Part shown: positions 2,078 through 48,746 of the stretch, one piece after another
Layout: each line of letters opens with the position of its first letter
Numbering within the stretch: position 1 is the first letter of the stretch
Assembly: GCF_900637555.1 (NCBI RefSeq)
Contig: NZ_LR134378.1
Coordinates: 1,002,001 to 1,066,000, forward strand
DNA length: 64,000 nucleotides
From: Lautropia mirabilis
GTDB taxonomy: Bacteria; Pseudomonadota; Gammaproteobacteria; Burkholderiales; Burkholderiaceae_E
Reading direction: 5' to 3'
Position numbers and translations under genes: made by a program
The notes under the pieces: generated by a model
Told to the model about the DNA's origin: nothing
Seen by the model: the letters and a program-made list of their open reading frames with translations, nothing else
The model's database searches: none

Positions 2078-3013
2078 TTACGCCTGGGCCGTTCCCCGAA
2101 TCTTCTGGATGCCCAGGAAGACGATGGCCAGCACCAGGCCAGCCAGCAGGCCGACCACGCCCTGGGCTACCGGCAGTGCCAGGCCGGACAGCCAGGCAGG
2201 CAGCGTGACCTGCGCCAGGCTGTGTTCCAGGGCATGATGCACGGCCGGAATGCCGTGAGTCGCGATGCCGCCGCCGACCAGGAACATGGCGATCGTGCCG
2301 GCGATGCTCAGACCCTTCATCAGCCAGGGGGCTGCACGCAGGATGCCGCGCCCGATGGCGCGCAGCAGCGGGCGCATGCCGTTGCCCTGCAGCTGGCTCA
2401 GGTACAGGCCCAGGTCGTCCAGCTTCACGATGGCGGCCACAATGCCATAGACGCCCACGGTCATGGTCAGGGCGATGATGGCCATGACCGTGATCTGCGT
2501 GGGCAGCGGCTCGTGGGCCACGATGCCCAGCGTGATGGCGATGATCTCGGCCGACAGGATGAAATCGGTCCGGATGGCGCCCTTGACGCGCTCCTTCTCG
2601 TTCAGCGGCGGCTGTTCGTCGGCAGGGGGAGGCGCTTCGGCCGAGGCATGATCGGCGGCGTGCTCGGCGTGCTTGCGATGCAGTGCGGAGTGCAGCAGCT
2701 TTTCGGCACCCTCGAAGCACAGGAACAATCCACCCAGGGTCAGCAGTGGCGTTACCAGCCAGGGGGCGAAAGCGCTGATGGCGAGCGCCAGCGGTACTAG
2801 GATGCTCTTGTTCAGCAGCGAGCCCTTGAATACGGCCCAGACCACGGGCAGTTCTCGGTCCACGCGCACGCCCGTGACCTGCTGGGCGTTCAGGGCCAGG
2901 TCGTCGCCCAGGACGCCTGCGGTCTTGGCGCCGGCGGTTTTCGTGAGTGCTGCAACATCATCCAGCAGGCTGGCGATGTCGTCGATTAAAGTGAGCAGGT
3001 TGGCAAGCGCCAT
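2078..3013 (-). CDS. DUF808 family inner-membrane protein (YedI-like)
   Basis: The protein has 311 residues when started at the ATG at 3013. This start gives the family's usual opening, MALANLLTLIDDIASLLDDV, followed by KTAGVLGDDLALNAQQVTG and RELPVVW, which are highly typical of DUF808. A longer frame runs upstream to 3190 but adds 59 residues without family character and would overlap the neighbouring M23 gene. Several hydrophobic segments follow (around LVPLALAISAFAPWL, ITVMAIIALTMTVGVYGIV, GLSIAGTIAMFLVGGG and VVGLLAGLVLAIVFLGI), so it is a polytopic membrane protein. A charged His/Ala/Glu-rich linker lies near residues 130-160. The molecular function of the family is not established. It is divergent from the M23 gene with only 27 bases between the chosen starts. 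Confidence 0.85.
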   Translation of the reverse strand: MALANLLTLIDDIASLLDDVAALTKTAGAKTAGVLGDDLALNAQQVTGVRVDRELPVVWAVFKGSLLNKSILVPLALAISAFAPWLVTPLLTLGGLFLCFEGAEKLLHSALHRKHAEHAADHASAEAPPPADEQPPLNEKERVKGAIRTDFILSAEIIAITLGIVAHEPLPTQITVMAIIALTMTVGVYGIVAAIVKLDDLGLYLSQLQGNGMRPLLRAIGRGILRAAPWLMKGLSIAGTIAMFLVGGGIATHGIPAVHHALEHSLAQVTLPAWLSGLALPVAQGVVGLLAGLVLAIVFLGIQKIRGTAQA

Positions 3014-3040
3014 GCGTATCCCATCCAGGCCGGGAGGGCC

Positions 3041-4216
3041 GTGAAACCGTTGAATGTACCTGATCGATCGATGTCCGACGCTGCGGAAGTATCCGTGAAA
3101 GGTGATACAGCATGTGAAGTGTTGCCACTGCCTGTCGGGAATGGAAACCGCCTGTGCGACGTTCAGGGACTGCAGGCCGGACGTCGACATTGGCTGGGCG
3201 GCATGGCCGCCGCCCTGCTGGGGGGCGGTGCGTTTGCGGTGTGCCCTGGTGTTGTGCGGGCCGCTGCGCTCCCGCCCCCGGAACGCAGGACGGTTTCGCG
3301 GTCGAAGGCGACATTGCCTTTTCCGGTGTCGAGAGCGGTACCCGGTGGTGTAGCCGTGGTGCCACTGGGGGCTGCCCGGCGGGCGCCCAAGGCCATCTGG
3401 AACGGAGTACCTGTTCTGGTGACAGGGTCATCATCCGGGTGGTTCGCGGTGTTGGGCATTCCGCTGCACACGTTGCAGGATCGGCTGGTGCTGGAGGTGC
3501 AGGATGCGGCGCCCGGTGCGCCGCGAGCCGCCAAGCAGGCCTCGGCGCACGACAAGGGCAAAGGTCACGACGCAGAGGTCATGGCGGAGGCCCGGGCTGG
3601 CAAGGCTCCGCCGGAGGCGTCGTCGACCGGGGTGCGACAGATCGATGTGCCCATCCGTCCCCATCAGTATGCCGAGCAGCATCTCAAGGTGGCACCAGGG
3701 CAGGTCACGCTCAGCAAGGAGGTCCTGTCCCGCCATCTGCGCGAGCGCAAGCAGAGCACGCGTGTCATGTCCACCTGGAGCGAACCGGTGCCGGCCTCGC
3801 TGCAGCTGCGCCAGCCGGTGCCGGGCGTGCGCTCCAGCTCGTTCGGGCTGCGTCGCTTCTTCAATGGCCAGTCGCGCAATCCGCATGGGGGCATGGACAT
3901 CGCGGCGCCCGTGGGAACGCCCGTGAAGGCGGCCGCCCCCGGCGTGGTCATCGATACCGGCGACTATTTCTTCAACGGAAACACCGTCTGGGTTGACCAC
4001 GGCGCCGGGTTGCTGACCATGTACTGTCATCTGGACCGCATTCGCGCCCGTGTCGGCCAGCGGGTTCGGACGGGCGATGTCATTGGAACCGTGGGCAAGA
4101 CCGGGCGAGTCACCGGCCCGCATCTGCACTGGTCGGTGTGCCTGAACCGCACCATGGTCGATCCGGCGCTTTTCCTGAAGGCCGAACAGCCCAAGAAGGC
4201 GACGCGGCGCAAATAG
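3041..4216 (+). CDS. Exported M23 family metallopeptidase (LytM domain)
   Basis: This is a predicted periplasmic zinc peptidase acting on peptidoglycan cross-bridges, 391 residues long. A hydrophobic segment at about residues 48-75, preceded by Arg-Arg-His-Trp-Leu, looks like a Sec or Tat-like signal with a long N-region. The C-terminal LytM domain carries the zinc ligands: H282 and D286 in NPHGGMD, and H361/H363 in GPHLHWS. The start is uncertain. GTG 3041 has GGGAGG just upstream (3032-3037). ATG 3071 has no ribosome site, and GTG 3119 would give a more normal signal length. It is convergent with the DUF3293 gene, nine bases away. It could be either an active endopeptidase or an amidase activator, but the intact H/D/H set favours activity. 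Confidence 0.85.
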   Translation: MKPLNVPDRSMSDAAEVSVKGDTACEVLPLPVGNGNRLCDVQGLQAGRRHWLGGMAAALLGGGAFAVCPGVVRAAALPPPERRTVSRSKATLPFPVSRAVPGGVAVVPLGAARRAPKAIWNGVPVLVTGSSSGWFAVLGIPLHTLQDRLVLEVQDAAPGAPRAAKQASAHDKGKGHDAEVMAEARAGKAPPEASSTGVRQIDVPIRPHQYAEQHLKVAPGQVTLSKEVLSRHLRERKQSTRVMSTWSEPVPASLQLRQPVPGVRSSSFGLRRFFNGQSRNPHGGMDIAAPVGTPVKAAAPGVVIDTGDYFFNGNTVWVDHGAGLLTMYCHLDRIRARVGQRVRTGDVIGTVGKTGRVTGPHLHWSVCLNRTMVDPALFLKAEQPKKATRRK

Positions 4217-34981: not shown

Positions 34982-35001
34982 ACGCGGCTCAGTGCCGCGT
35001 C
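34981..35001. terminator. Stem-loop spanning two convergent stop codons
   Basis: GACGCGGC (34981-34988) and GCCGCGTC (34994-35001) form a perfect eight-pair stem with loop TCAGT. It begins at the last base of the Nudix stop, and its loop holds the stop of the giant gene. No U-run is seen; it may protect or end both transcripts. Confidence 0.45.
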
Positions 35002-36441
35002 CTGGCCATCGGCTGATCGGCACCATCGGTGCCTTGCTGGCGGGGCCTGGCCTGTGCCCCGTACTTGCTCTCGAACTTCAGCGCGGGCTGCTCCGGCTCG
35101 GTCTGCACGCTCACGTTGGCGCCCTGGGCCTGACGCGCCTTGACCTGCTCGATGACGGTGGCGCTGCACGAGCCCTCGATGAAGTCGGCGCGGTGCAGCA
35201 TGCCCTTCTTGGCATCGATGAAGAGGCTGTGTGCATCGCCCACGTTCTGGGCGCTGCTGGTCACGAGCCGGCTCTTGCGGGGCAGGGTGCGCGCATCGAC
35301 CTTGAGCACGTGGGTGCGCGGGCGCAGACCGCAGTGGCTGTACTTGCCCTGTTCGTCGGAGACGATCCAGGTGCCGTTCTCCAGATACAGGCGCACGCCC
35401 GGGATGCCCAGCTCCTCGCGGTCCTTCACACTGTTGCCGTTGCAGTCCACGTAGATCTGGCCAGCCAGGCAGGCTTCGTCGGAGAAGATGCCGCCGGTAA
35501 CGCGCACCTTCCAGCGGGACTCGTTCGAGCACTGGCTGCGGCTTGCGCCATCACGGCCCAGACACTGCACGTGGGCGCGGTTGATGCCGTCACCCTGGGA
35601 CGAGCCCACCCCGGCACGCAGCCGATAGGTGATCGTCACATCACTGTTGCTGCCCCCCTGGCCGGCGGCCTGGGCGGTGCCGGCAGCGGCCACGCGATCC
35701 AGCGTGATGTGCAGCTCCCGATCGCCCTGCATCTGCACCTGGGTGGCGCGGGCGTTGGTGATGCGCACCGAGCCGGGCTCGAAGCGGAAACCGCGCGGCA
35801 GACGATCGATCACTTTCGGCGACAGGGCAGGGGACTTGCCGTTGTTGCGGATGCGCAGCTGATAGGTGATGAGATCGCCCATCTCGACCGAGCGGCTGGT
35901 GCTGGTCTTGTCGATGGAGAGCGTGGCAGCGAGCACCGGCTCGGGCGTGTCGAGGCAGGCCTGGGCCGAGAGCGGCTCGCCGCTGGCCTGTCCGCCCTGC
36001 TGGCGGGTGAGGGTGGCGGCGTTGAAGAGGCCGTGGCCCGCGCCGTCACCGGCCGCCTGGCAGCGGTCGTTGGCGGTGCTGCCCTCGAAGGGCACGCGCA
36101 CACGGAAGGTCATGCGGTACACATCGGAGGCGCCGATGGCCAGCGACTGCTGGCTGGCCAGCGGCCATTGCCGGCGAGCCTGTGCAGCACCCGCACCCGT
36201 GACAGCCGAAGGCGTCACGTTCAGGGGCTGGTCGTTGCGCAGGATGGTGGCGCTGACGATCTCCACGTCGCTGTCGAAGGCCGGGGCGTCGACGAGGTCG
36301 TAGACGCCGGCGATGCCGCCCTCGTGGCTGACGGTGAGGGTGTAGGCCACGTCATACTCGTTGGCGGTGCCGGCCACAAGGCGTGCACTGCCGTCGACGG
36401 CCTTGGCCAGTTTCAACGAGGCGGGGATGTCCTTCAGTTCC
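34989..36441 (-). repeat. Near-identical 3' block, copy in giant gene A
   Basis: The last 1.45 kb of gene A matches the last 1.45 kb of gene B (42132-43578) at a constant offset of 7143 bases, shifting to 7137 after a six-base indel near 36190/43330. Long runs are identical (for example around 35521 and 42664). Similarity drops sharply at the upstream end, just beyond the codons for DIPASLKL. Confidence 0.9.
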
Positions 36442-39400
36442 ACGCGGCACTTGGCGAATTCACGGTTGGCCAGCGTCAGGATGTTGTCCTGCAGCGTGCC
36501 GCCGGTACATACCCATTTGCTGACGCGATAGCCGCGGGGCAGGTTGGGGACCTGCAGCTCGAACACGCCGGGTTTCACCTGGCGCGCGGTCACGGCCGCC
36601 GTCTTCGAGATGCCGGAGATGGAGTCATCGGGGTTGGCGACGTTGGTGGCCGACAGGGCGATGTCTTCCTTCGAGGCCGTGCCACCGTGTTCGTTCACCA
36701 CGTCCACGTCCAGCGTTAGGCTCACCGGCTGATCGATGTGCTCGATGGTGCAGGTGACGTGCTCGCCGCTGCGGATGGTGAGCACGCTGTCGGCCAGCTG
36801 TCCGCCGTTGCACGACCATGGCGTGGAACCATACTCGGGCAGGGCATCGGCGCGCAGGGTGTAGGCACCTGGCAGCACGCCGGCCCCGGTGACGCTGGCG
36901 GAACCGCTCTGTCCGTTCAGCGGTGTCGGACCTTGCGCTGACAGCGGGAAGTCCTCGGCCTTGGCTGTGTGGCCATTCTGGTTGGTGACGATGTTGACCA
37001 GGGTGAGCTGGGCCGGCATGTCCTCGTAGCGGATCGTGCAGACGGCCTGCTGGCCATGTGTCAGGGCCACGCTGTTGCCGGTCCTGGCGCTTCCGCCATC
37101 AATGGCACATTGCCAGTCGCCGTGGCGATAGCCGTTCAGGGCGCTGCTGGAGAGCGTCCAGTCACCATGGGCCACTTCCACCTGCGTCACGGCCTTGCTG
37201 CCGCTGATGCCGCTCACGGTCGTGGATGTGCCGTCAGCATGGTCCTGGCTGGCCTGCAGCGTCACGTCGCTGGCTGAGGCCTTGCCGCCATGGCGGTTGC
37301 TCACCTCACCAACCAGCGTCAGGCGGGGAGCCACGTCCTCGTAGCGCACCGTGCAGACGGCCTCATCGCCTTCGGCCAGGCTCAGCGCGTTACCGCTGCT
37401 CTGTTTCACGGCCTTGTCGGTGCTGTCTGCGTGCGGCGTGATGGTGCACGACCATTCTCCACGCTGGTAGCCACCCAGTTCGGCACTGGACAGCGTCCAG
37501 GCACCGGTCGGCACTTCCACGCGCGTGATGGACGGCTTGCCGCTGGCGCCTTCCAGCGCAGTGGTGGTGCCGGTGTCATCGGTATGGCTGGCGCCCAGCG
37601 TCAGGTCGGCTGTCGTCTTGGTGCCGCCGTGACGGTTGCCGATCTCACTGACCAGCGTCAGATAGGTCGGTTTCTTCTGCGGCGGGGGAGGGGGCTGGTC
37701 CTCATAGTTGATCGTGCAGACGGCATCCTGGCCGCGCTGCAGTGTCAGCGTGTTGCCGCTGGCAGGGGCGCCACCATCGATGGCGCATTGCCATTCGCCA
37801 TGGGTATAACCGGCCAGGGCCGTGCTGGCCAGTGTCCAGGTCCCGTTGGCGGCCTCAATGCGGGTGATGGTGCTGGCACCGCTGGTGCCGCTCACCGTCG
37901 TGGTGTTGCCGTTGTCGGTGTGGCTGGCCGAGAGCGTCATGTCGGTCGCCGAGGCCTTGCCACCATGATTGTTGGTCACCTGGCTCACCAGGGTCAGGTG
38001 GGCCGGTTTCGGCTGGTCTTCGTAGCTCGCGGTACAGGTGGCCTGATCACCCCAGGCCAGTGTCAGGTTGGTGCCTGCCACGGGGGCCTGACCGTTGATC
38101 ACGCACTGCCAGCTGGCCGGGTTGTAGTCGGAAAGCTCCTGGGCAGAGAGGGTGTAGTTGCCCGCAGGCACGGTGGTCTGGGTGACAGGGCTGCTGCCGC
38201 TGTTGCCCTGCACGATGGTGCCGGCTGCGGTGTCGGCCCCGGTGGCCGACAGTTGCACGCTGTCGGCAGTCGCCGTGGCGCCATGGTTGTTCGTGACCGA
38301 GGCCACCAGGGTCAGGCGAGGCCGTACGGGAACCTCGGTGAAGTCATAGTCCTGAAGGGCCGCGCCGCGAGCCACGGTGATCTGGGCAATCCGGTTTTCC
38401 TGCACGGTCCCGTTGGGTGTGGTGCTGCCTGCCTGGGTGCCCAGGAAGGCCAGGCCGTTGCTGAGCGCACCACTGGCTGCCGGCTTGGAAACGGTGTATG
38501 TGCCTGCCAGCAGACCACCAAAGTAGGGCAGCGGCGTGCCGCTGCAGTCGGCGTTGTAGTGGATCTTGTTGCGCGCGCCCTCGGCAAATTCATAGCGGCC
38601 GTCGGCGTCGGTGCGCATCGAGAACGTCATGGCCTCGCCGCGGCTGGTCGTGCCCTGCAGCGTGATGCAACGGTTGGCCAGCGCCCAGTCGGCGGTGTCC
38701 AGTACGTGGTTCTGGTCCAGATCGGCGAACACGCGACCTGCCAGGCGGCTCATGTGATCGCGGACGCGGACCTGCATGTTCGATTGCGAGGCCACGAACA
38801 GCAGCGAGCTGGCGGGATCCACGGGCCGGGAGCCGGCCCGGTTGGCAAAGACGTTGCCGGGGTAGGCCAGTACCGGGTGGGAGCCGAGAATCAGCTGGAT
38901 GGTGTAGGGCGTGTTGCGCGGCAGGTTGGCCAGTGTCGGGCTGACACGGATGGCCGTGCTTTCGCCGATGGTCTGCGGGCAGCCTGTGGTGCCCAGCTCG
39001 GTGGCCAGGCACCAGCGGGTGGTGCCTCCGACAAGGCGGTTGCTGTCGTCACGCGGGTCGTTGTGGATCTCGTGCGGCGGGCGCTTGGTGTAGTAGATGC
39101 GTGCGTTGGGGTCCAGACTGGACGGCACGACGGATTTCAGCGTGTAGGCTCCGGGCTCGAAGCTGGATGCCGGGGTGCGTCCGCTGAAACTCAATGCGTG
39201 GTTGTCCTCACCGTCGCCCACGAAGGGCAGAATGTCGATGATGTCCGGCAGGTTGGGGGCAAGGGTGTCCTGGCCGATGGAGGCGAAGCTGATGCTGTAG
39301 TCGAAATCGTCGCCCGGCGTGATGCTGGTCTGGGAAGAGGTCTTCTCCAGCACAAAACCAGGTGGGGTCTGTACCGTCACTTCGGCAAAGGCGGATTTGA

Positions 39401-41885
39401 CGCACTTTCCAAAGCCCTTGCCCACTTCGTAGGTACAGTCGGATGCTGCATCGTACTCACCACCGCTGGTGGCCACGTCGTTGCGAAGTTTTGTGCCATC
39501 CAGCAGTGTCTGGCTCGTGCGTGCCTTGTAGGTGAGAGGAGGCTGTGCAGCGGCGTCAGAGTGTACGCCCAGGAATGGCGTGCGGTTCTCCAGCTTCCAG
39601 GTGAGCGTGGTGAGCCCCTTGGCCGGCTTGTCGTTCTGAATGGTGGGCTCGAGTTGCTGGCCGTCGAAACGGGCACTGTCGGCCACGTACTTCAGCCCGG
39701 TTGGCAGTATGTCCGTCACTGTGATGGTACCAGGTACGGGCTTGTTGACCGTGGCGTAATACGGGGTGATCTGATAGGTGATGACGGTGCCTGCGGGCAC
39801 TGGTGCAGTGGTGGCATTGGCCGGGGCAATCACCTTTTTGGTGGGACGTGTTGTGGTCTGCCGGTTTACCACGCGCAGGTGGTCCCAATTGGTGATGCTC
39901 TTTGCCAGGTTGGGCAGCGTGTCGGAGCGCAGCTCTGCACGGTTACGGATGATGCTGCCGGCGGCGATGGGCGCACCGGCCTGACGGATGCTGCGCGTGG
40001 GCGTCTGCACTTCAATGGTGGATGCCCAGGTTTCGCGCAGGATCAGTCCCCCGATACGCATGGAGGAGTCGTTGGCTGCGGGAAGGTTCCTGATGTTGCC
40101 GCGTACATAGACCAGGCCGCCGGCCGCTTCAGCTTCCTGCGGGGTGGCGTACCAGCGGATGCCTGGATCCAGGCAGCTGGCACGGGAATACTCGGATGTG
40201 CCGGGTACCGAGCGCGGGACGCCGGCTAGGCCTTCGTACTCGGAATGGGCACTATCGGTGGATGCGAAATAGGGCGAGCCGCTGGCCGGTACGCCATACT
40301 GATAGCTTATGTCGGGCGCCGGGACATTTGCCGTAATCAGAGCTGTGAAATTCTGGCCAATATCGAAGGCGGTGCGGTCGATGATGTCGCACAGCGAGAC
40401 ATTTTCGTGTGCTATTGCTCCGAAAGCGGAATATCCCAGCCGACTCGCTACAGTCTGTCCGTGAGACATCTGGTTGACGATACTGCCCGACGTCATGGTT
40501 GGGTCGCGTACCGTTCTGTAGGGCATGGGCAGGCTTTCATCTGGCTGGAACTGCTTGGCCGTGTTTCCTGAAGCCTCATTCCTCAGCTTATACGTGTCCT
40601 TATTATTGCTGGCCTGGTCACCGCTGATGGACTGACCCGTGATCGACTGACCACTGACGCTACGCAGCGTCATGGTGTGGTAGATGTCCTGATTTAGCGG
40701 GTAATCCTCAATTGAGGTCCACAGCAGCAGCGCCTTGTTGGCCACCCAGGCTTCCTGGTTGGTGGGCAGCTTGCGACCGTCGGGGAGAAGGATGGTAGGG
40801 ATATGCCGCAGCGCGGTGTCCACGCCGTCGAGGGCCAGCTGGACGTGGTTGCGATCGCTGGTGACCGTGCGGCAGTCACCGCCATTGGCTACGTAGTTAT
40901 TGGCAGTGCTGGGTGTGGGGCCCTGATCCATCACGCGGTAATACATACCGAAACCGTTGCTGATCAGCGGGCTGGGGCGGCCGTTGCTGGGGCTGCCGCA
41001 GCCATCGGCAAAGCTGCCGGTGGGGCGGTTGCCGGTGTTGGCGGGCAGATTGGCATGCCAGTTGGCCACGGCAACCGAGGGTGGGTAGCCTCCTACATCA
41101 AGGTCGACTTCGATGGGGGAAGTGGGGGCCAGCTGTTCAACGCCTTTCAGACCATGTCCGTGGGGGTTGCGTGCCGTCAGGCCAATCAGCATCTGGTGGT
41201 AGAAGCCATCCTTGCCGCCGGGGCCACTGCCGCGCCGGTAGCCTTGTGGTCCGCCCACGGACTGCTGGACGACCACGTCATAGAAGGGGGCGGCACTGAC
41301 GGTCAGGGTATTGGGCAGGGAAGCAGGCCCGGGTTGGACCTGGCCATTGGCACTGACTTCCAGGGAGGGAGGGGTGATCTTGTCACCATTGCCGGAACTG
41401 CCCAGCACGACCCCCTGAAAATAGACGGCCAACGTTCCGGCGCTGGCAACGTCGCCCAGACGGCAATCGATGGTCCGTTTGTCGGTCGACAGTGTGGACC
41501 CTCGCTTGCAGGCTGTTGGTAGGTAGCTCCAGACAGCTACCTGCTTGCCGGCATGCTGTGGCATCACGAGCTGGATGCGCAGGTCCTTTTCCGCATCATC
41601 GGTGGCCAGCTGCACCAGGTACTGGAACTCATCATGCGTTCGCACGATGTCGTTTCTGGGGCCGCTGTCCAGGCCGGGGCCGTCTGCACTGTCGAAATTG
41701 GGGGTGCCATCGAAGTGCGTGCTGTACTTCACCTCCGCGATACCGGCACTCACCGGCAGAGCGAACGATGCCAGGGTCATTCCTGCCAGCAGGCGGGCCA
41801 GGGGGCGAAGCGAAAGTGGAATAGACGGTCTGCGCATGATGCGTCGCATGTCCTTTGCCGGAGATCCGGCAGGGTGGTCGGTCAT
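34989..41885 (-). CDS. Giant exported surface protein A with DUF11, SdrD-B-like and prealbumin-like modules
   Basis: The protein has 2,298 residues. A signal peptide ends near FALPVSA (about residue 47); in-frame ATGs at 41849 and 41837 are alternative starts, and none has an ideal ribosome site. A unique N-terminal region (48-680) is followed by a DUF11-like part (from TTRPTKKVIAPANAT, about 680), a Cna-B/SdrD-like segment (GRVFADLDQNHVLDTADW, about 1045) and six prealbumin-like modules (1190-1818), each with the pattern LTLV..V.N.HGG ... W.C ... C.. and two Cys. The C-terminal 480 residues hold DUF11 (SIDKTSTSRSVEMGD, about 1985) and an SdrD-B-like domain (GQIYVDCNGNSVKDREELG, about 2135). 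No LPxTG, autotransporter barrel or OmpA domain is visible. It is likely a cell-surface or secreted adhesin or filament, but the role is inferred. It is a paralogue of the gene at 42132. Confidence 0.8.
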   Translation of the reverse strand: MTDHPAGSPAKDMRRIMRRPSIPLSLRPLARLLAGMTLASFALPVSAGIAEVKYSTHFDGTPNFDSADGPGLDSGPRNDIVRTHDEFQYLVQLATDDAEKDLRIQLVMPQHAGKQVAVWSYLPTACKRGSTLSTDKRTIDCRLGDVASAGTLAVYFQGVVLGSSGNGDKITPPSLEVSANGQVQPGPASLPNTLTVSAAPFYDVVVQQSVGGPQGYRRGSGPGGKDGFYHQMLIGLTARNPHGHGLKGVEQLAPTSPIEVDLDVGGYPPSVAVANWHANLPANTGNRPTGSFADGCGSPSNGRPSPLISNGFGMYYRVMDQGPTPSTANNYVANGGDCRTVTSDRNHVQLALDGVDTALRHIPTILLPDGRKLPTNQEAWVANKALLLWTSIEDYPLNQDIYHTMTLRSVSGQSITGQSISGDQASNNKDTYKLRNEASGNTAKQFQPDESLPMPYRTVRDPTMTSGSIVNQMSHGQTVASRLGYSAFGAIAHENVSLCDIIDRTAFDIGQNFTALITANVPAPDISYQYGVPASGSPYFASTDSAHSEYEGLAGVPRSVPGTSEYSRASCLDPGIRWYATPQEAEAAGGLVYVRGNIRNLPAANDSSMRIGGLILRETWASTIEVQTPTRSIRQAGAPIAAGSIIRNRAELRSDTLPNLAKSITNWDHLRVVNRQTTTRPTKKVIAPANATTAPVPAGTVITYQITPYYATVNKPVPGTITVTDILPTGLKYVADSARFDGQQLEPTIQNDKPAKGLTTLTWKLENRTPFLGVHSDAAAQPPLTYKARTSQTLLDGTKLRNDVATSGGEYDAASDCTYEVGKGFGKCVKSAFAEVTVQTPPGFVLEKTSSQTSITPGDDFDYSISFASIGQDTLAPNLPDIIDILPFVGDGEDNHALSFSGRTPASSFEPGAYTLKSVVPSSLDPNARIYYTKRPPHEIHNDPRDDSNRLVGGTTRWCLATELGTTGCPQTIGESTAIRVSPTLANLPRNTPYTIQLILGSHPVLAYPGNVFANRAGSRPVDPASSLLFVASQSNMQVRVRDHMSRLAGRVFADLDQNHVLDTADWALANRCITLQGTTSRGEAMTFSMRTDADGRYEFAEGARNKIHYNADCSGTPLPYFGGLLAGTYTVSKPAASGALSNGLAFLGTQAGSTTPNGTVQENRIAQITVARGAALQDYDFTEVPVRPRLTLVASVTNNHGATATADSVQLSATGADTAAGTIVQGNSGSSPVTQTTVPAGNYTLSAQELSDYNPASWQCVINGQAPVAGTNLTLAWGDQATCTASYEDQPKPAHLTLVSQVTNNHGGKASATDMTLSASHTDNGNTTTVSGTSGASTITRIEAANGTWTLASTALAGYTHGEWQCAIDGGAPASGNTLTLQRGQDAVCTINYEDQPPPPPQKKPTYLTLVSEIGNRHGGTKTTADLTLGASHTDDTGTTTALEGASGKPSITRVEVPTGAWTLSSAELGGYQRGEWSCTITPHADSTDKAVKQSSGNALSLAEGDEAVCTVRYEDVAPRLTLVGEVSNRHGGKASASDVTLQASQDHADGTSTTVSGISGSKAVTQVEVAHGDWTLSSSALNGYRHGDWQCAIDGGSARTGNSVALTHGQQAVCTIRYEDMPAQLTLVNIVTNQNGHTAKAEDFPLSAQGPTPLNGQSGSASVTGAGVLPGAYTLRADALPEYGSTPWSCNGGQLADSVLTIRSGEHVTCTIEHIDQPVSLTLDVDVVNEHGGTASKEDIALSATNVANPDDSISGISKTAAVTARQVKPGVFELQVPNLPRGYRVSKWVCTGGTLQDNILTLANREFAKCRVELKDIPASLKLAKAVDGSARLVAGTANEYDVAYTLTVSHEGGIAGVYDLVDAPAFDSDVEIVSATILRNDQPLNVTPSAVTGAGAAQARRQWPLASQQSLAIGASDVYRMTFRVRVPFEGSTANDRCQAAGDGAGHGLFNAATLTRQQGGQASGEPLSAQACLDTPEPVLAATLSIDKTSTSRSVEMGDLITYQLRIRNNGKSPALSPKVIDRLPRGFRFEPGSVRITNARATQVQMQGDRELHITLDRVAAAGTAQAAGQGGSNSDVTITYRLRAGVGSSQGDGINRAHVQCLGRDGASRSQCSNESRWKVRVTGGIFSDEACLAGQIYVDCNGNSVKDREELGIPGVRLYLENGTWIVSDEQGKYSHCGLRPRTHVLKVDARTLPRKSRLVTSSAQNVGDAHSLFIDAKKGMLHRADFIEGSCSATVIEQVKARQAQGANVSVQTEPEQPALKFESKYGAQARPRQQGTDGADQPMARTRH
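36426..38319 (-). repeat. Array of six prealbumin-like modules in giant gene A
   Basis: Module boundaries, read from the LTLV motif, fall near 38319, 37999, 37666, 37326, 37013 and 36727, giving units of about 95-113 codons. Each module carries a Cys after W(Q/S/V) and another before the Y/I/L-E-D end, a likely disulfide. A Pro-rich linker (six Pro with Gln/Lys) separates modules 2 and 3. Confidence 0.8.
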
Positions 41886-42131
41886 GGAAACAGGCGTCCG
41901 TCTTTCGTGCTGGGCAGGAAGGCGGACCGGTTCATGAATGAAGGATATTCGCCGCTGAGCTGGCTGCCGATGGAAAACGGGCAGCAGTCGATCAGTGGGG
42001 ATGGGCAGGGGATGGGTGGGATGGAACTATTGTGCCGTTGAGACATCCCCTGGGGATCCGGGAAATCTCCCGGATCCCGGTACCCGATAGACTACGGGTC
42101 GAGCCGGCGCGTCATGGCTCAGTGTCGCGTC
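41886..42131 (-). other. Spacer between the two giant genes
   Basis: 246 bases with no gene. It holds a perfect ten-pair stem-loop, GGGATCCGGG (42053-42062), loop AAATCT, CCCGGATCCC (42069-42078), about 55 bases after the gene B stop on the minus strand. No U-run follows on that strand, so it is not a standard intrinsic terminator and could allow read-through into gene A. No confident promoter for gene A is seen. Confidence 0.5.
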
Positions 42132-42144
42132 TCAGTGCCGCGTC
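42119..42144. repeat. Tandem 13-base duplication at the stop of giant gene B
   Basis: TCAGTGTCGCGTC (42119-42131) and TCAGTGCCGCGTC (42132-42144) are adjacent copies differing by one base. The second contains the stop codon of gene B; the same word ends gene A in a single copy. It looks like a small slippage or a trace of the duplication that produced the pair. Confidence 0.7.
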
Positions 42145-43578
42145 TTCGCCATCGGCTGATCGGCACCGTCGGTGCCTTGCTGGCGCGGCCGTGCCGGAAT
42201 GCCGCGCTTGCTGTCAAAGCTCAGCGCCGGCTGCCCCGGCTCGGTCTGCACGCTCACGTTGGCGCCCTGGGCCTGACGCGCCTTGACCTGCTCGATGACG
42301 GTGGCGCTGCACGAACCCTCGATGAAGTCGGCGCGGTGCAGCATGCCCTTCTTCGCATCGATGAAGAGACTGTGCGCATCACCCACGTTCTGGGCGCTGC
42401 TGGTCACGAGCCGGCTCTTGCGGGGCAAGGTGCGCTCATCGACCTTGAGCACGTGGGTGCGCGGACGCAGACCGCAGTGGCTGTACTTGCCCTGTTCGTC
42501 GGAGACGATCCAGGTGCCGTTCTCCAGGTACAGGCGCACGCCTGGAATGCCCAGCTCCTCGCGGTCCTTCACACTGTTGCCGTTGCAGTCCACGTAGATC
42601 TGGCCGGCCAGGCAGGCCTCGTCGGAGAAGATGCCGCCGGTAACACGCACCTTCCAGCGGGACTCGTTCGAGCACTGGCTGCGGCTTGCGCCATCACGGC
42701 CCAGACACTGCACGTGGGCGCGGTTGATGCCGTCACCCTGGGACGAGCCCACCCCGGCACGCAGCCGATAGGTGATCGTCACATCACTGTTGCTGCCCCC
42801 CTGGCCGGCGGCCTGGGCGGTGCCGGCAGCGGCCACGCGATCCAGCGTGATGTGCAGCTCCCGATCGCCATGCATCTGCACCTGGGTGGCACGGGCATTG
42901 GCGATGCGCACCGAGCCGGGCTCGAAGCGAAAGCCCCGCGGCAGCCGGTCGACCACCATCGGCGACAGGGCAGGGGCCTTGCCGTTGTTGCGGATGCGCA
43001 GCTGATAGGTGATGAGATCGCCCATCTCGACCGAGCGGCTGGTGCTGGTCTTGTCGATGGAGAGCGTGGCAGCCAGCACCGGCTCGGGCGTGTCGAGGCA
43101 GGCCTGGGCCGAGAGCGGCTCGCCGCTGGCCTGTCCGCCCTGCTGACGGGTGAGGGTGGCGGCGTTGAAGAGGCCATGGCCCGAGCCGTCACCGGCTGCC
43201 TGGCAGCGGTCGTTGGCGGTGCTGCCGTCGAAGGGCACGCGCACGCGGAACGTCATGCGGTACACATCGGAGGCACCGATGGCCAGCGACTGCTGGGTGG
43301 CCAGCGGCCATTGCTGGCGAGCCTGTGCAGCACCCGTGACAGCCGAAGGCGTCACGTTCAGGGCCTGGTCGTTGCGCAGGACGGTGGCGCTGACGATCTC
43401 CACATCGCTGTCGAAGGCCGGGGCATCAACCAGGTCGTAGACGCCGGCGATGCCGCCCTCGTGGCTGACGGTGAGGGTGTAGGCCACGTCATACTCGTTG
43501 GCGGTGCCGGCCACAAGGCGTGCACTGCCGTCGACGGCCTTGGCCAGCTTCAGCGAGGCCGGGATGTCCTTCAGTTCC
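42132..43578 (-). repeat. Near-identical 3' block, copy in giant gene B
   Basis: This is the partner of 34989-36441. By eye the two encoded tails differ at about 20 of 480 residues plus a two-residue indel (GAGAAQARR in A, GAAQARQ in B), with most changes in the last 25 residues and in scattered single codons. Confidence 0.9.
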
Positions 43579-46500
43579 AGCCGGCAGGTGACGTTCTGCT
43601 GATTGGCCAGCGTCAGGGTGTTGCCGCTGAGCGTGCCGCCGTTGCAGACCCACTTGCCCGTCTGGTAGCCGGGCAGTGCCAGCGCCTGCAGCTCGTAGAC
43701 GCCCGGGCGCACCCCGGCCAGCGTCACGGGCCGGCTGCCGGTGACGCCCTGGATATTGTCCGGGCCGCTGGCCGAGACCGCATGCTGGGCCGGCGTGGCC
43801 GTGCCACCATGGCTGTTGCTGATGTCCAGCGCCAGCGTCAGGCTCACCGGCTGGTCCACATGATGCACGCGGCAGGTGACATCGTCATGGCTTTGCAGCG
43901 AGAGCTTGCTGTTGGCCAGGTTCACCGCCTGGCCGCTGGCGTTCGCGCAGCTCCAGGTGCTGGCCGAGTAGCCGGGCAGGGTGCTGGCCGCCAGCGTGTA
44001 GGCGCCAGCCGGCACTTCCACCTGGGTCACGGTGGGCTGGCCGCTGCGTCCATCCACGAGGATGCGGCCATCGGCCGAGAGCGGGAAGTCCTCGGCCTGG
44101 GCGGTGCCGCTCAGGACGTTGGTGACGGTGTTGACGAGCGTGAGCCGCGCCGGTGCGCTGTCCTCGTAGACGATGGTGCAGACGGCGGCCTGGCCCTTTT
44201 GCAGGTTCAGGCTGCTGGCCACACCGGTCTTGGCGTCCCCGTTGGCGATGCGGATGGCACGTGCTCCGTCGATGCTGCACTGCCAGTCACTGTGCCAGTA
44301 GCGAAGCAGGGCAGGGGCCGAGAGTGTCCAGTCCCCGGTCACGACATCAGCCTGGGTGACGGCGCTGCTGCCGCTGTTGCCCGTGACGGTGACCGTGCGG
44401 GAGGTAGCCTCTTCAAAGTGGCTGGCCGACAGCGGAACGCTCTCTGCCGTGGCCGTGCCGCCATGGCGGTTGTTGACCACGCTCACCAGTGTGAGGCGCG
44501 ATTCCTTGGCCCGCGGCAGATCCTCGTAGGCCAGGGTGCAGGTGGCCTTCTGGTCGTAGTCCAGCGCCAGGGTGGCACCCGTGGCGGTCGTGGTCTGAGC
44601 CGACGCACCGTGCCCGGTGGTGATGACACAGCGCCAGTCGCCATGGCGGTAGTTGGGCAGCTCCGGCGCCGCCAGCGTCCAGGTGCCGGGTGCGACGTTG
44701 GCCTGGGAGACGGCAGCCTCGCCCGTGACACCGTGAATGCTGGGGTCGGTGTCCTTGTCGTGCTGGGCCGACAGGTGCACGTCATGCACGCCCAGCTTGC
44801 CCCCGTGGTTGTTGGTCACCTGACCCACCAGCGTGAGCTGCGGCTCGGCCCGACCGGCATAGCGCACGGAACAGGTGGCCTCATCGCCCCAGGTGAGCGC
44901 GACGCTGGCGCCATCGACCGGGGCCTGGCCATTGACCACGCACTGCCAGGCGCTGATGGCGTAGCCCGTCAGGGCTGGGGAGGACAGGGCATAGGTGCCG
45001 GGCACGACGTCCGTGCGGGTGACCGGGGCGCTGCCGCTGGTGCCCTGGAGCGTGAGCGCCGGATCGCCCGGACCCTTGGCCGTCAGCGCGATCTCGCCCA
45101 GCTGGGCCTTGCCGCCATGGGTGTTGTCGATGCTGGCCTGCAGCGAGAGCCGGGGTTTCTGGCGTGCTTCGGTGAAGTCGTAGCCGGTGGCGTTCTGGTC
45201 GCCCGTCAGCGTGATGCTGGCGATGCTGCGGCCGTCGGTGGCGGGCTGACCGCCCTGCGCACCGGCACGGGCTGCCCCCGGCAGGCTGTCTGCACTGTTG
45301 GCCGTGACACGCGATAGTGCATAGGTGCCGCCGGGCACCCCGGCAAAGCGCACGAGCGCCGTGCCGCTGCAGTCGGCGTTGGCAAAGACCGTGTTGGCCG
45401 CGCCCATGGCAAAGCCGTACTCGCCCTGGGCATTGGTTCGGGTCGAGAGCGTGACGGCCCGGCCCTGGGCGTCCTGCCCCTGCAGGAGCACGCACTGGTT
45501 GGGCAGGGCGGCATCGTCATGGTTGAAGGTGCCGTCCTGGTGGCCGTCGATGTAGAGCCGGCCGGCCAGGCTGTTGAGGGGCACCGTGCGGATGCGCACG
45601 TTCAGGTCGGTGCCGGAGTAGGTGTAGAGCAGGTGGCTGCTCGGATTGACGGGACGGGCACCGGCGTGGTTGGCAAAGACGTCGCCGGGCTGGGCGATGA
45701 GCGGATCGCTCGTCATCTTGACGCGGATCTCGTAGGGCTCGCCCGAGCCTAGACGCGTGAGCGTGGACTGGGTGCGGATGGCCGTGCTCTGGCCGATGTC
45801 GGCCGGGCAGCCGGCCTGGCCGAACTCGGCGGCCTGGCACCAGCGGGTGCTGCCGCCGGGCATGACGTTGCTGGCGTCACGCGCGTCGTTGTGGATCTCG
45901 GCAGGCGCACGGTTGGTGTAGTAGATGCGCATGCCCGGGTCGATGGTCGGGGGCTCGACGGCCTGCAGGTGGTAGGCGCCGGCATCGAAGCGCGAGGCCG
46001 GGTTGCGGCCGTTGAACGAGCGCGCGGTATCGGCCGTGCCATCGCCCACGAAGGGCAGGATGTCGATCACGTCGGGGATGTCGATCTGCCGCAGGGTCTG
46101 GCCCATCGCATAGAAGGCGATATCGTAATGGAAGGCCTCGCCCGGCTCGATCTCCTCTTTGGAGACGGTCTTTTGCAGCACGAAGCCCGGGGGCGTGTCG
46201 ATGGTGACGGAGGCGTCGGCCGACTTGGCGCAGGCCTTGAAGCCGCCCGAGGCGGTGTCGAACTCGCAGTCCGGATCAGCATCAATGGCGCCGCCGCTGA
46301 CCACGGCCTGGTTGCGCAGGGATGCGCCGTTGGGCAGTGTCAGCGCCAGCTTCGCACGGAAGGTGATGTCGGGCAGGTAGGCGCCGCCTTCCAGGTCGGT
46401 ACCCACGTGCGGGGTGACGTTCGTGTAGGTCCAGGTCAGGCGGGTGAGACCCTGCGAGGGGGTGTCCTCTTCCACCTGGGGCTCGACGGGTCGGCCGCCC

Positions 46501-48746
46501 TGGCGACTGCTGGTGGGCACATAGCGCATGCCGCGCGGCAGCACGTCGGTGACGGTGACGGTACCGGGGTAGGGCGGCAGCACGGTGGCGTAGCGCGGCA
46601 GAAGCTGGAAGGTGAGTGTGGTGCCGGCCGCCACGGGCTGGGTGGCGTTGGCCGGCTCGATGATCCTCTTGGCGATGCGGGTGGTGGTGCGCGCCTTGGT
46701 GACCTGCAGGTGGTCACGCAGCGAAGGCTGAAACCTCTGCACCAAGGCTTCGGGTATGTTGTCAGCCGCCAGTGTTCCACGGTTACGGATGATGGTGCCT
46801 TCCGCAATCTCGGTGCCTTTCTGGCGTACCGAAGGTGTCGGCGTCTCGACCGCAATGGTCTCGGCCCAAGTCTCGCGCAGTTTCAGTCCCGAGATGTACA
46901 GGTAGGCACTCTTGCCTCCCGGCAGGTTGCCGGTGCCCTTCACATAGGTGACGCCGCCGGCCGCTTCTGCATCCTGCCACTTGCGATACCAGGTGATGGA
47001 GGGGTCTGTGCAGTTGGCCCTGGCGTACTCCGACGCTCCGGTGACGGATGCTGCGGACAGGCGGGGGGAGAGGGCGCTGTCGGTGCTGGCAAAGTAACGG
47101 CCACCTGAACGGACGCCATACTGCACGGCACCCTCACCGCTCTGGGGCGTGAAGGTGGCGCCGAAATGGTCCGCCAGGTCGAATGCGGTCCTGTCGATGA
47201 TTTCGCACATCGACAGGTTCCGGAAGGCGACGCTACCTTTGTTGGTGAACACGACACGTGCCTTGACGATCTGGCCATGGGCCATGTAGTCGACGAAGTC
47301 ATCCCCGGTATAGGCCGGATCGCGTACGGTACCGATCGGGGGGCGCTGGGCGGCGTCGGGTGTATAGATCTTGCTGGAGTAACCGTCAGGCCGGTTGATC
47401 AGTTCGTGCGTGAACGAATCATTGCTGGTTCGGGTGTTCTGGGCGGCCTGATTGCTGATGGAGGTCGCCTTGAAATCAGCCAGTCTCAGCGTGTGCTGAA
47501 TGGTCTGCTCGGGTGGGTAGTCGTTGAGGTCCGTCCAGAACACCAGGGCCTTGCTGGCGACCCAGTGTTCGTCGGGCGGAATGGAGCTTCCGCCCCGCAT
47601 CTGGGTTGGCGTATGGGCAAGGCTGGTGTCGACGCCGGTCAGGCGGATCCTGACGATGTTGTTGTCCGGCAGACCGTTGGCGGTAGGCAAGGCTTCACAG
47701 TCGCCGCCGTTGGCAACCATCCAGTTTTCCTTGCTTGGCCCCCCGATATCACCGACCCTCTGATAGGCGTTGATGCCGCGGCCGGCCAGCTGGCTGGGAG
47801 CACCCTGCCAGATGCTGCCGCAGCCGTCGGCAAAGCTGCCGCTGGGCAGGTCGGCGGCTTCAGTGTTGGCGCGAGTGCGCCAGTTGTCCAGACGTACCGA
47901 TTGCGGGTAGCCGGCAACATTGAGACTGATCTCGATGGGTTTGGTGGGATCAAGCTGTTCGACCCCTTTCTTGCCGTTGCCGCTGGGATTGCGGGCCATG
48001 AGGCCCACCATCATGCGATGGTAGAAGCCGTCTTCCTTGTTGGGGCCGCCCCCAGCCTGGAATCCGTAGGCCATGGGGTTGCCGGGATAGGTGTCCATGA
48101 CCACCACGTCGTAGAACGGGGCAGCCGTGATGGTCAGTGCCGGCGGCAGCGTGGCCGGGGCAATGGTGGGAGTATTGAGCGAGCTGACCTTCAGGGTGGG
48201 GGGCGGCATCGGGGTGCCGTTGGCGTTGGAGCCCAGGACGTGGGCCCTGAACCTGCCTGAGTTCGTGCCGGAGCCGGTGTAGTCCGGCAGGGCGCAGACA
48301 AGCGTCTGCCGATCGCTCGAAACACGTGAGCCTTTTGCCACGCAATCGGCGGGGGGGGTCGTGGGCCACTCGGCAAGCGGCTTTCCATCGCCTCTTCTGG
48401 GAAGCGTCAGTTCGACCTTTGCATCCTTGGTGCCGCCGGAATACGAGATGGCCACCTGGTAGGTGACTTCGTCATGGGTGCGTACCCGCTGGTTGTTCGG
48501 ACCCGTGTCGAGACCGGGGCCATCCGTGGCGTCCCATCCCGGCGTACCGTCGGAGTCCACCGTGTAGTTGACAGCGTTGAGGGCGGCGTGGGTTGGTGCG
48601 CTCCACAGGGCTGCCAGCAGGGCTGCGGCCAGAAGCGTGGGGCGGAAACGGGTGAATGCTGCACCGTGGTGGCACGGCGGCGTGGCCATGCTTTCCGGGC
48701 GCAATGCCAGGGCCTGAGAGAACGATCGGGAAACCTGCTTGTGCAT
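42132..48746 (-). CDS. Giant exported surface protein B, paralogue of protein A
   Basis: The protein has 2,204 residues. The N-terminus has a long basic leader, then a hydrophobic core LLAAALLAALWSAPTHA, giving cleavage near residue 54. The mature opening (YTVDSDGTPGWDATDGPGLDTGP) parallels that of protein A, as does the whole layout: N-terminal region, DUF11-like part (RIAKRIIEPANAT), Cna-B/SdrD-like segment near residue 1054 (GRLYIDGHQDGTF), five prealbumin-like modules (about 1195-1725) and the nearly identical 480-residue C-terminus. The 94-residue length difference from A is close to one module. AAGGA lies 11 bases before the ATG. There is no visible membrane anchor or autotransporter domain. 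It is transcribed toward A and is probably first of a two-gene unit. Role in adhesion or surface structure is inferred. Confidence 0.8.
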   Translation of the reverse strand: MHKQVSRSFSQALALRPESMATPPCHHGAAFTRFRPTLLAAALLAALWSAPTHAALNAVNYTVDSDGTPGWDATDGPGLDTGPNNQRVRTHDEVTYQVAISYSGGTKDAKVELTLPRRGDGKPLAEWPTTPPADCVAKGSRVSSDRQTLVCALPDYTGSGTNSGRFRAHVLGSNANGTPMPPPTLKVSSLNTPTIAPATLPPALTITAAPFYDVVVMDTYPGNPMAYGFQAGGGPNKEDGFYHRMMVGLMARNPSGNGKKGVEQLDPTKPIEISLNVAGYPQSVRLDNWRTRANTEAADLPSGSFADGCGSIWQGAPSQLAGRGINAYQRVGDIGGPSKENWMVANGGDCEALPTANGLPDNNIVRIRLTGVDTSLAHTPTQMRGGSSIPPDEHWVASKALVFWTDLNDYPPEQTIQHTLRLADFKATSISNQAAQNTRTSNDSFTHELINRPDGYSSKIYTPDAAQRPPIGTVRDPAYTGDDFVDYMAHGQIVKARVVFTNKGSVAFRNLSMCEIIDRTAFDLADHFGATFTPQSGEGAVQYGVRSGGRYFASTDSALSPRLSAASVTGASEYARANCTDPSITWYRKWQDAEAAGGVTYVKGTGNLPGGKSAYLYISGLKLRETWAETIAVETPTPSVRQKGTEIAEGTIIRNRGTLAADNIPEALVQRFQPSLRDHLQVTKARTTTRIAKRIIEPANATQPVAAGTTLTFQLLPRYATVLPPYPGTVTVTDVLPRGMRYVPTSSRQGGRPVEPQVEEDTPSQGLTRLTWTYTNVTPHVGTDLEGGAYLPDITFRAKLALTLPNGASLRNQAVVSGGAIDADPDCEFDTASGGFKACAKSADASVTIDTPPGFVLQKTVSKEEIEPGEAFHYDIAFYAMGQTLRQIDIPDVIDILPFVGDGTADTARSFNGRNPASRFDAGAYHLQAVEPPTIDPGMRIYYTNRAPAEIHNDARDASNVMPGGSTRWCQAAEFGQAGCPADIGQSTAIRTQSTLTRLGSGEPYEIRVKMTSDPLIAQPGDVFANHAGARPVNPSSHLLYTYSGTDLNVRIRTVPLNSLAGRLYIDGHQDGTFNHDDAALPNQCVLLQGQDAQGRAVTLSTRTNAQGEYGFAMGAANTVFANADCSGTALVRFAGVPGGTYALSRVTANSADSLPGAARAGAQGGQPATDGRSIASITLTGDQNATGYDFTEARQKPRLSLQASIDNTHGGKAQLGEIALTAKGPGDPALTLQGTSGSAPVTRTDVVPGTYALSSPALTGYAISAWQCVVNGQAPVDGASVALTWGDEATCSVRYAGRAEPQLTLVGQVTNNHGGKLGVHDVHLSAQHDKDTDPSIHGVTGEAAVSQANVAPGTWTLAAPELPNYRHGDWRCVITTGHGASAQTTTATGATLALDYDQKATCTLAYEDLPRAKESRLTLVSVVNNRHGGTATAESVPLSASHFEEATSRTVTVTGNSGSSAVTQADVVTGDWTLSAPALLRYWHSDWQCSIDGARAIRIANGDAKTGVASSLNLQKGQAAVCTIVYEDSAPARLTLVNTVTNVLSGTAQAEDFPLSADGRILVDGRSGQPTVTQVEVPAGAYTLAASTLPGYSASTWSCANASGQAVNLANSKLSLQSHDDVTCRVHHVDQPVSLTLALDISNSHGGTATPAQHAVSASGPDNIQGVTGSRPVTLAGVRPGVYELQALALPGYQTGKWVCNGGTLSGNTLTLANQQNVTCRLELKDIPASLKLAKAVDGSARLVAGTANEYDVAYTLTVSHEGGIAGVYDLVDAPAFDSDVEIVSATVLRNDQALNVTPSAVTGAAQARQQWPLATQQSLAIGASDVYRMTFRVRVPFDGSTANDRCQAAGDGSGHGLFNAATLTRQQGGQASGEPLSAQACLDTPEPVLAATLSIDKTSTSRSVEMGDLITYQLRIRNNGKAPALSPMVVDRLPRGFRFEPGSVRIANARATQVQMHGDRELHITLDRVAAAGTAQAAGQGGSNSDVTITYRLRAGVGSSQGDGINRAHVQCLGRDGASRSQCSNESRWKVRVTGGIFSDEACLAGQIYVDCNGNSVKDREELGIPGVRLYLENGTWIVSDEQGKYSHCGLRPRTHVLKVDERTLPRKSRLVTSSAQNVGDAHSLFIDAKKGMLHRADFIEGSCSATVIEQVKARQAQGANVSVQTEPGQPALSFDSKRGIPARPRQQGTDGADQPMAKTRH
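43556..45153 (-). repeat. Array of five prealbumin-like modules in giant gene B
   Basis: Modules begin near 45153, 44848, 44499, 44148 and 43850. They share the HGG, GYxxxxWxC and C-terminal C-x-(V/L/I) marks with the array in gene A but differ in surface loops. Modules 4 and 5 here align with 5 and 6 of A (AEDFPLSA and VSLTL openings). Confidence 0.8.

Follow-up and report, generated by a model that had tools for sequence, protein, structure and literature searches.

A window of 64,000 nucleotides from Lautropia mirabilis, a Gram-negative bacterium of the Burkholderiales (assembly GCF_900637555.1, contig NZ_LR134378.1, positions 1,002,001 to 1,066,000), carries two adjacent minus-strand genes for giant modular proteins, here named A (34989..41885; 2298 amino acids (aa)) and B (42132..48746; 2204 aa). 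We consider it probable that A and B are Gram-negative fibrillar adhesins with swapped tips, displayed in trans by one shared barrel protein. A preliminary description of the window had put forward the pair itself as an undescribed surface system. The apparently undescribed part is the barrel partner together with its sharing, which lies outside the window; the pair alone does not make up the whole system and its stalk domains are of a known kind.

According to the proposed mechanism, A and B would be exported to the periplasm by signal peptides and fold into rods. Each rod would begin with a variable N-terminal region of about 625 residues, the likely adhesive tip, continue with an immunoglobulin (Ig)-like stalk with intramolecular isopeptide bonds and a disulfide-bonded SpaA_2 array, and end in a conserved C-terminal DUF11-SdrD_B module. 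This module may dock with a shared Ig-barrel protein encoded next to a third rod gene, in cis where the two are fused and in trans in Lautropia. The barrel would hold the rods on the surface and perhaps pass them through the membrane. Lautropia would thereby combine one barrel with several dispersed rods, recombination keeping stalks and docking parts similar among some copies as the tips diverge.

The barrel partner and its association with the C-terminal module

The third paralogue (G000:C1:1273395-1279952) is located about 223 kb from gene B and shows 86% identity over B residues 24-2204. Adjoining it is the partner gene (C1:1280098-1283658, about 229 kb from gene B), which encodes a protein of about 1,190 aa with an invasin-like Ig domain followed by a large predicted C-terminal outer-membrane beta-barrel. 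It was the single barrel gene of this family found in the L. mirabilis genome, and exactly one partner match was present in seven of nine Lautropia genomes.

A search of 41 related genomes detected the partner in 11 and a match to B in 13, and all 11 were among the 13. Across 299 genomes of the phylum, the barrel was found in 43, the module in 41 and both in 40 (Fisher test, 5.9e-45, relatedness ignored); counted by genus, each occurred in 23/154. To obtain these loci, 76 barrel rows were reduced to 47, the 29 dropped rows being further pieces of counted loci (one of them, in G289, on another contig), and 53 module rows were reduced to 51 by dropping second pieces in G304 and G082. Of the 47 barrel places, 42 had a same-strand module no more than 6 kb away, upstream in 41, and in 31 both lay in the same open frame, as judged by equal frame length.

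The gene order was similar at individually named loci. The best 80 of 150 relatives gave 76 loci, of which 60 remained after 16 Lautropia loci had been set aside. The barrel lies directly downstream of the module in 53/60, with a 4-nt overlap in 23; for three of the 53 the start is uncertain, since that of the longest frame overlaps by kilobases. It lies upstream in two (Lysobacter antibioticus and Lysobacteraceae NML95-0200), three loci stop at a contig edge, and two contain no barrel (L115 and L078, the latter bounded upstream by a contig edge). Module and partner share one frame in G021, G026 and G039:C4. The G021 frame (L048:5766-10738) is preceded by several smaller exported-looking proteins in repeated pairs.

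The entire order is shown as one chain by a 3,728-aa frame in G515, a genome of the same class (L148:2778-13964, G515:C21). It contains a Lautropia-type N-terminal region (60-1097, E 2.2e-86), a DUF11/SdrD_B stalk, the module (2376-2663, E 1e-96) and the Ig domain with barrel (2725-3719, E 1.2e-276). Passenger and barrel lie together, in one protein or in neighbouring genes, in most genomes examined, and apart in Lautropia; such a pattern is the classic sign of physical partnership. From the barrel fusions we infer surface attachment of the rods; docking in trans, surface display and adhesion are the corresponding predictions for A and B.

In the structure model of the barrel protein, 39 strands of at least 8 residues are predicted, not all of which necessarily belong to the barrel; this number is near that of the largest single-chain barrels known. 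A PDB sequence search with the barrel profile returned three rows: invasin (E 0.035), an enzyme without relation to it (E 0.042) and one further row (E 0.97). Foldseek matched the model to large outer-membrane barrels, including SprA of the type IX secretion system and the barrel of the Mtr complex, with template modelling (TM) scores of 0.10-0.28. SprA was one of many such barrels (TM 0.10-0.17), and the likeness to SprA and Mtr concerns the class of fold only, neither being among the three PDB sequence rows. No Pfam or NCBIfam model exceeded its cut-off in the Lautropia, Stenotrophomonas, Lysobacter and Oxalicibacterium partners scanned, and PHROGs gave no match for the barrel partner or B. 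The partner-like protein of G029 (L027:11164-15690) has an OmpA domain in its N-terminal part, which may mean that binding to peptidoglycan strengthens the anchor in some lineages. Distant relatives of the partner also occur on plasmids (H1-H15; 21 records) of Acinetobacter, alphaproteobacteria and cyanobacteria, with 23-33% identity among the matches listed; their annotations include DUF11 protein, TonB-dependent receptor and hypothetical.

Architecture and predicted export of A and B

The preliminary description had given two adjacent same-strand genes for 2,298 and 2,204 residues, and the open reading frames (ORFs) are exactly of this kind; codon-position G+C favoured them over long ORFs on the opposite strand. 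The DUF11-like and SdrD-B-like parts and the prealbumin-like array recognised earlier were likewise recovered in both proteins as Pfam matches above the curated cut-offs: SpaA_2 (PF19403; A: E 3.4e-111, six stretches; B: 4.3e-73, five stretches) and, once near each C-terminus, DUF11 (PF01345; A: 1.8e-7; B: 2e-9) and SdrD_B (PF17210; A: 2.5e-8; B: 1.3e-8). A DUF11-type repeat model of NCBIfam also scored above its cut-off. The first 1,000 residues of either protein were free of listed Pfam matches, sub-cut-off matches fell at residues 1071-1112 of A and 1026-1112 of B, and no Pfam adhesive or ligand-binding domain was recognised in A or B at E up to 0.1. Modular, exported-looking proteins of this layout resemble Gram-positive surface proteins, as noted before, in a Gram-negative host.

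Both proteins have signal-peptide-like starts. In A (aa 1-47; 41745..41885) a hydrophobic stretch at residues 32-43 precedes the motif PVSA/G, and in B (aa 1-54; 48585..48746) residues 37-48 precede PTHA/A. The signal peptides claimed earlier thus stand as putative ones, with a hydrophobic start and a cleavage-like site in each, based on a hydropathy scan and not on a signal-peptide predictor. The mature parts of A and B contain 32 and 30 cysteines, with one pair per SpaA_2 module; SecA, for comparison, has 6 cysteines in 948 residues. Because of the paired cysteines and the signal-peptide-like starts, a cytoplasmic location, which the preliminary description had named as evidence against a surface role, is unlikely. 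Disulfides within the SpaA_2 modules and isopeptide bonds are predicted from the same sequences.

The variable N-terminal region spans aa 48-668 in A (39882..41744, delimited by paralogue alignment) and aa 55-679 in B (46710..48584), where it starts with a CLIPPER/DUF11-like domain and has diverged from the third paralogue. It is followed by the Ig-like stalk, with approximate ends, at aa 669-1185 of A (38331..39881, assigned by alignment to B and not from its own model) and aa 680-1194 of B (45165..46709), where B is near-identical to the third paralogue from aa 680 on. The B stalk contains two K-D-N triads, K693/D734/N812 and K859/D895/N1026. Next come the SpaA_2 arrays, again with approximate ends, of six modules in A (36423..38318) and five in B (43572..45152). 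The C-terminal module of DUF11, SdrD_B and a conserved tail occupies aa 1822-2298 of A (34992..36422) and aa 1730-2204 of B (42135..43559), and is the proposed docking part. Its DUF11 triad (K1899/D1933/N2008 in B) is kept in 14/14 rows of the module alignment, the bond itself being predicted, and A and B retain the columns invariant in this alignment, the triad included.

Fold searches of the predicted structure of B matched N-terminal model residues 7-163 to PDB 9ifr, and the N-terminal region appeared largely as a run of Ig-like domains. For model residues about 165-405, a stretch folded within the larger model, these searches listed no known adhesive fold. A characterised full-length match would have spoken against novelty; neither the N-terminal profile (E up to 1) nor B (E up to 0.1) had a match in the PDB sequence search.

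An 11-bp inverted repeat, perfect and with a loop of 4 bases, lies between B and A (42053..42078); no T run follows it on the minus strand and it was not among the results of the terminator scan. A simple scan of the region for sigma-70 promoters, the single type searched, gave no site. The flanking genes are presumably MutT/ThiE-like on one side and yacG/zapD-like on the other.

Divergent tips and alternative explanations

The preliminary description had proposed a search for the same order in Burkholderiales genomes, and this search revealed a family spanning the genus Lautropia, of which this genome has a third member. N- and C-terminal parts were matched in eight of the nine Lautropia genomes among the 41; five of the 32 others matched in the C-terminal region, and G039 gave one more, weak match at query 1027-1113. 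Counting pieces, the number of module matches in the Lautropia genomes was 3 (G000), 2 (G001), 0 (G005, which is 81% complete), 9 (G003), 1 (G002), 2 (G007), 3 (G008), 4 (G004) and 5 (G006). At a further chromosomal site in Lautropia, a haem-type TonB receptor (NCBIfam; L041:12972-15521) was seen near a client rod, and in another Lautropia genome a client has near it a protein whose C-terminal end is similar (L039:1109-3544). These were considered as the partner and set aside, the receptor being a standard one and none being seen by eye in the other ORF lists, for which no search was made.

The three L. mirabilis copies have C-termini that are 95-97% identical and N-termini that are not alike. 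Measured per 100 alignment columns, protein identity between B and the third copy is 52-71% to about B679 and 88-100% from there to the end; the switch falls within one 20-codon step, in which DNA identity rises from 47% to 98%, and over one run of 583 bp the two copies are identical. Identity between A and B is 38-65% over most of their length, 95-99% from B1730 and 88% in the last 57 residues, and their C-terminal DNA is 95-98% identical per 100 codons and 89% in the final 57. Two copies of another species, G6a and G6d, agree at 98% in the C-terminal region and at 45% in the first part of the tip.

A tree of 33 partners (midpoint root) grouped the four Lautropia sequences with two partner-first Lysobacteraceae (100/100), apart from other Lysobacteraceae. 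These two loci (L076 and L079) have a Lautropia-like partner of 55-56% identity, and NML95-0200 has a Lautropia-type N-terminal region (37%) and DUF11 but no listed SpaA_2. Transfer between lineages would be the simplest reading of this grouping, and L076 and L079 may reflect horizontal transfer.

Several observations weigh against display of A and B by the shared barrel. Many matches in the 299 genomes come from one family (f47), so the Fisher value overstates independence. The module of L115 has no barrel in the next 10 kb, G243 has the module only, G218, G247 and G310 have the barrel only, and in G007 clients are present and the barrel was not found, the expected locus being covered in part. 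The barrel model is of modest confidence (predicted local distance difference test 63.5, predicted TM score 0.54), which leaves strand number and closure unsure. The three residues of the first stalk triad are conserved in no more than 15, 16 and 18 of 21 rows, and neither a ligand nor a known adhesive domain could be assigned to the tip. Among 21 full-length clients, which do not include every partial one, only 6/23 within-genome pairs exceeded the between-genome maximum of 78% C-terminal identity, so that C-terminal homogenisation is a feature of some copies and no general rule. Lastly, the barrel gene is not beside the A/B pair, which makes its use in trans an inference.

This last point also bears on the alternative that survives best, which we nevertheless consider unlikely: A and B may have the same role and reach the surface by another route (the beta-barrel assembly machinery, another secretion system, or peptidoglycan or envelope contact), with the barrel serving only the third copy beside it and the module kept by descent and recombination. 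Similarity-driven gene conversion may then account for the C-terminal identity of the three copies, and the close medians of C-terminal identity within and between genomes (61 and 59) would fit. Such a route is harder to reconcile with a module lacking a barrel in just one of the 41 module-bearing genomes, with the invariant columns and triad kept in A and B, and with the finding of a single barrel gene of the family.

A distinctly improbable alternative is that A and B are structural, forming cohesive rods or a coat in Lautropia aggregates through N-terminal self-association. The largely Ig-like N-terminal run without a recognised Pfam ligand-binding family agrees with this, as does the place of Lautropia at the centre of cauliflower-like plaque consortia described in the available part of PMC8306857; however, a variable N-terminus on a conserved stalk, as in B and the third copy, fits a diversifying contact better than a uniform coat, and the number of paralogues differs between species. 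Very little speaks for A and B as a silent or archival cassette, a source of N-terminal variants for the expressed copy next to the barrel gene: the sharp joint at B679, the identical run between distant copies and the remote barrel gene would suit it, but both genes are full-length open frames with signal-peptide-like starts of their own, and the stretch of identity is found downstream of the tip, where a tip donor would not need it.

Relation to known systems and implications

Long chains with tandem Ig-like stalk domains, as found in A and B, correspond to fibrillar adhesins, defined in the accessible part of PMC8286594 as long multidomain surface proteins with adhesive and stalk domains. 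DUF11 is described in the available text of PMC12617251 as the "CLIPPER" isopeptide domain of such adhesins, and A and B combine Pfam DUF11 matches with the K-D-N triad. The closest described protein is B9T28_05395 of Acinetobacter silvestris, a CLIPPER fibrillar adhesin of 2,129 aa (PDB 9ifr). As far as that text describes it, it shares with A and B the Gram-negative host and, as predicted for A and B, a CnaA-type stalk with a K-D-N isopeptide and disulfides, an N-terminal tip and a C-terminal membrane end. Its anchor, however, is described as an OmpA-like domain in the same chain (PMC12617251), whereas the Lautropia module pairs with a separate Ig-barrel protein, and Lautropia differs further in the SpaA_2 array of the stalk and in having several clients per genome.

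An OmpA-anchored adhesin was set aside, PF00691 not being listed for A, B or the Lautropia partner; among partners covered by the scan, it occurs in that of G029 alone. In type V secretion, passenger and outer-membrane barrel are fused (T5a) or encoded by two neighbouring genes (T5b). The fused or split arrangement is a likeness to the present family; unlike type V systems, the Lautropia barrel is predicted to be far larger and appears to serve several dispersed clients. No match to Autotransporter (PF03797), Haemagg_act, ShlB/POTRA or IAT_beta was listed for A, B or the partners scanned (E up to 0.1, 0.01, 0.05). Two-partner secretion was rejected for A and B since neither its signature domain nor a POTRA/ShlB-type partner matched, and a classical or inverse autotransporter because no Autotransporter or IAT_beta barrel matched. 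With no defining type V domain listed, we file the rods as CLIPPER-type fibrillar adhesins. Invasin and intimin have an Ig-like rod held by an N-terminal outer-membrane barrel in the same chain; the first domain of the partner resembles an invasin domain, but in the Lautropia partner the Ig domain precedes a C-terminal barrel. Type 11 secretion was dismissed, no DUF560 match being listed for the partners scanned; PMC12282271, on that system, came up with DUF11, and in its available part the matching words are nearly all DUF1194. Sortase anchoring was rejected since the last 45 residues of A and B contain no LPXTG; unlike Gram-positive Sdr/SpaA-type surface proteins and pilins, they end in QGTDGADQPM-type tails and belong to a different envelope.

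In the literature searched by title and abstract opening, with subscription journals largely outside it, we found no description of the barrel partner, of the one-to-many arrangement or of these Lautropia proteins. The stalk chemistry is of a known kind, while the barrel partner and its sharing among dispersed copies look undescribed. The rods may best be seen as a variant of CLIPPER-type fibrillar adhesins; an undescribed anchor family is the bolder reading. We advance it tentatively, with some doubt: the Ig-barrel protein might found a family of machines for outer-membrane display that parallels type V secretion, with rod and barrel fused in many Proteobacteria and split in Xanthomonadales and Burkholderiales, and that serves in Lautropia as a one-to-many platform for a recombining tip repertoire via the docking module.

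The barrel family is a concrete candidate surface anchor for Proteobacteria. Lautropia is located at the centre of cauliflower-like plaque structures, as reported in the part of PMC8306857 available; if our interpretation is true, swapped adhesin tips on one anchor would therefore offer a testable molecular basis of plaque architecture.

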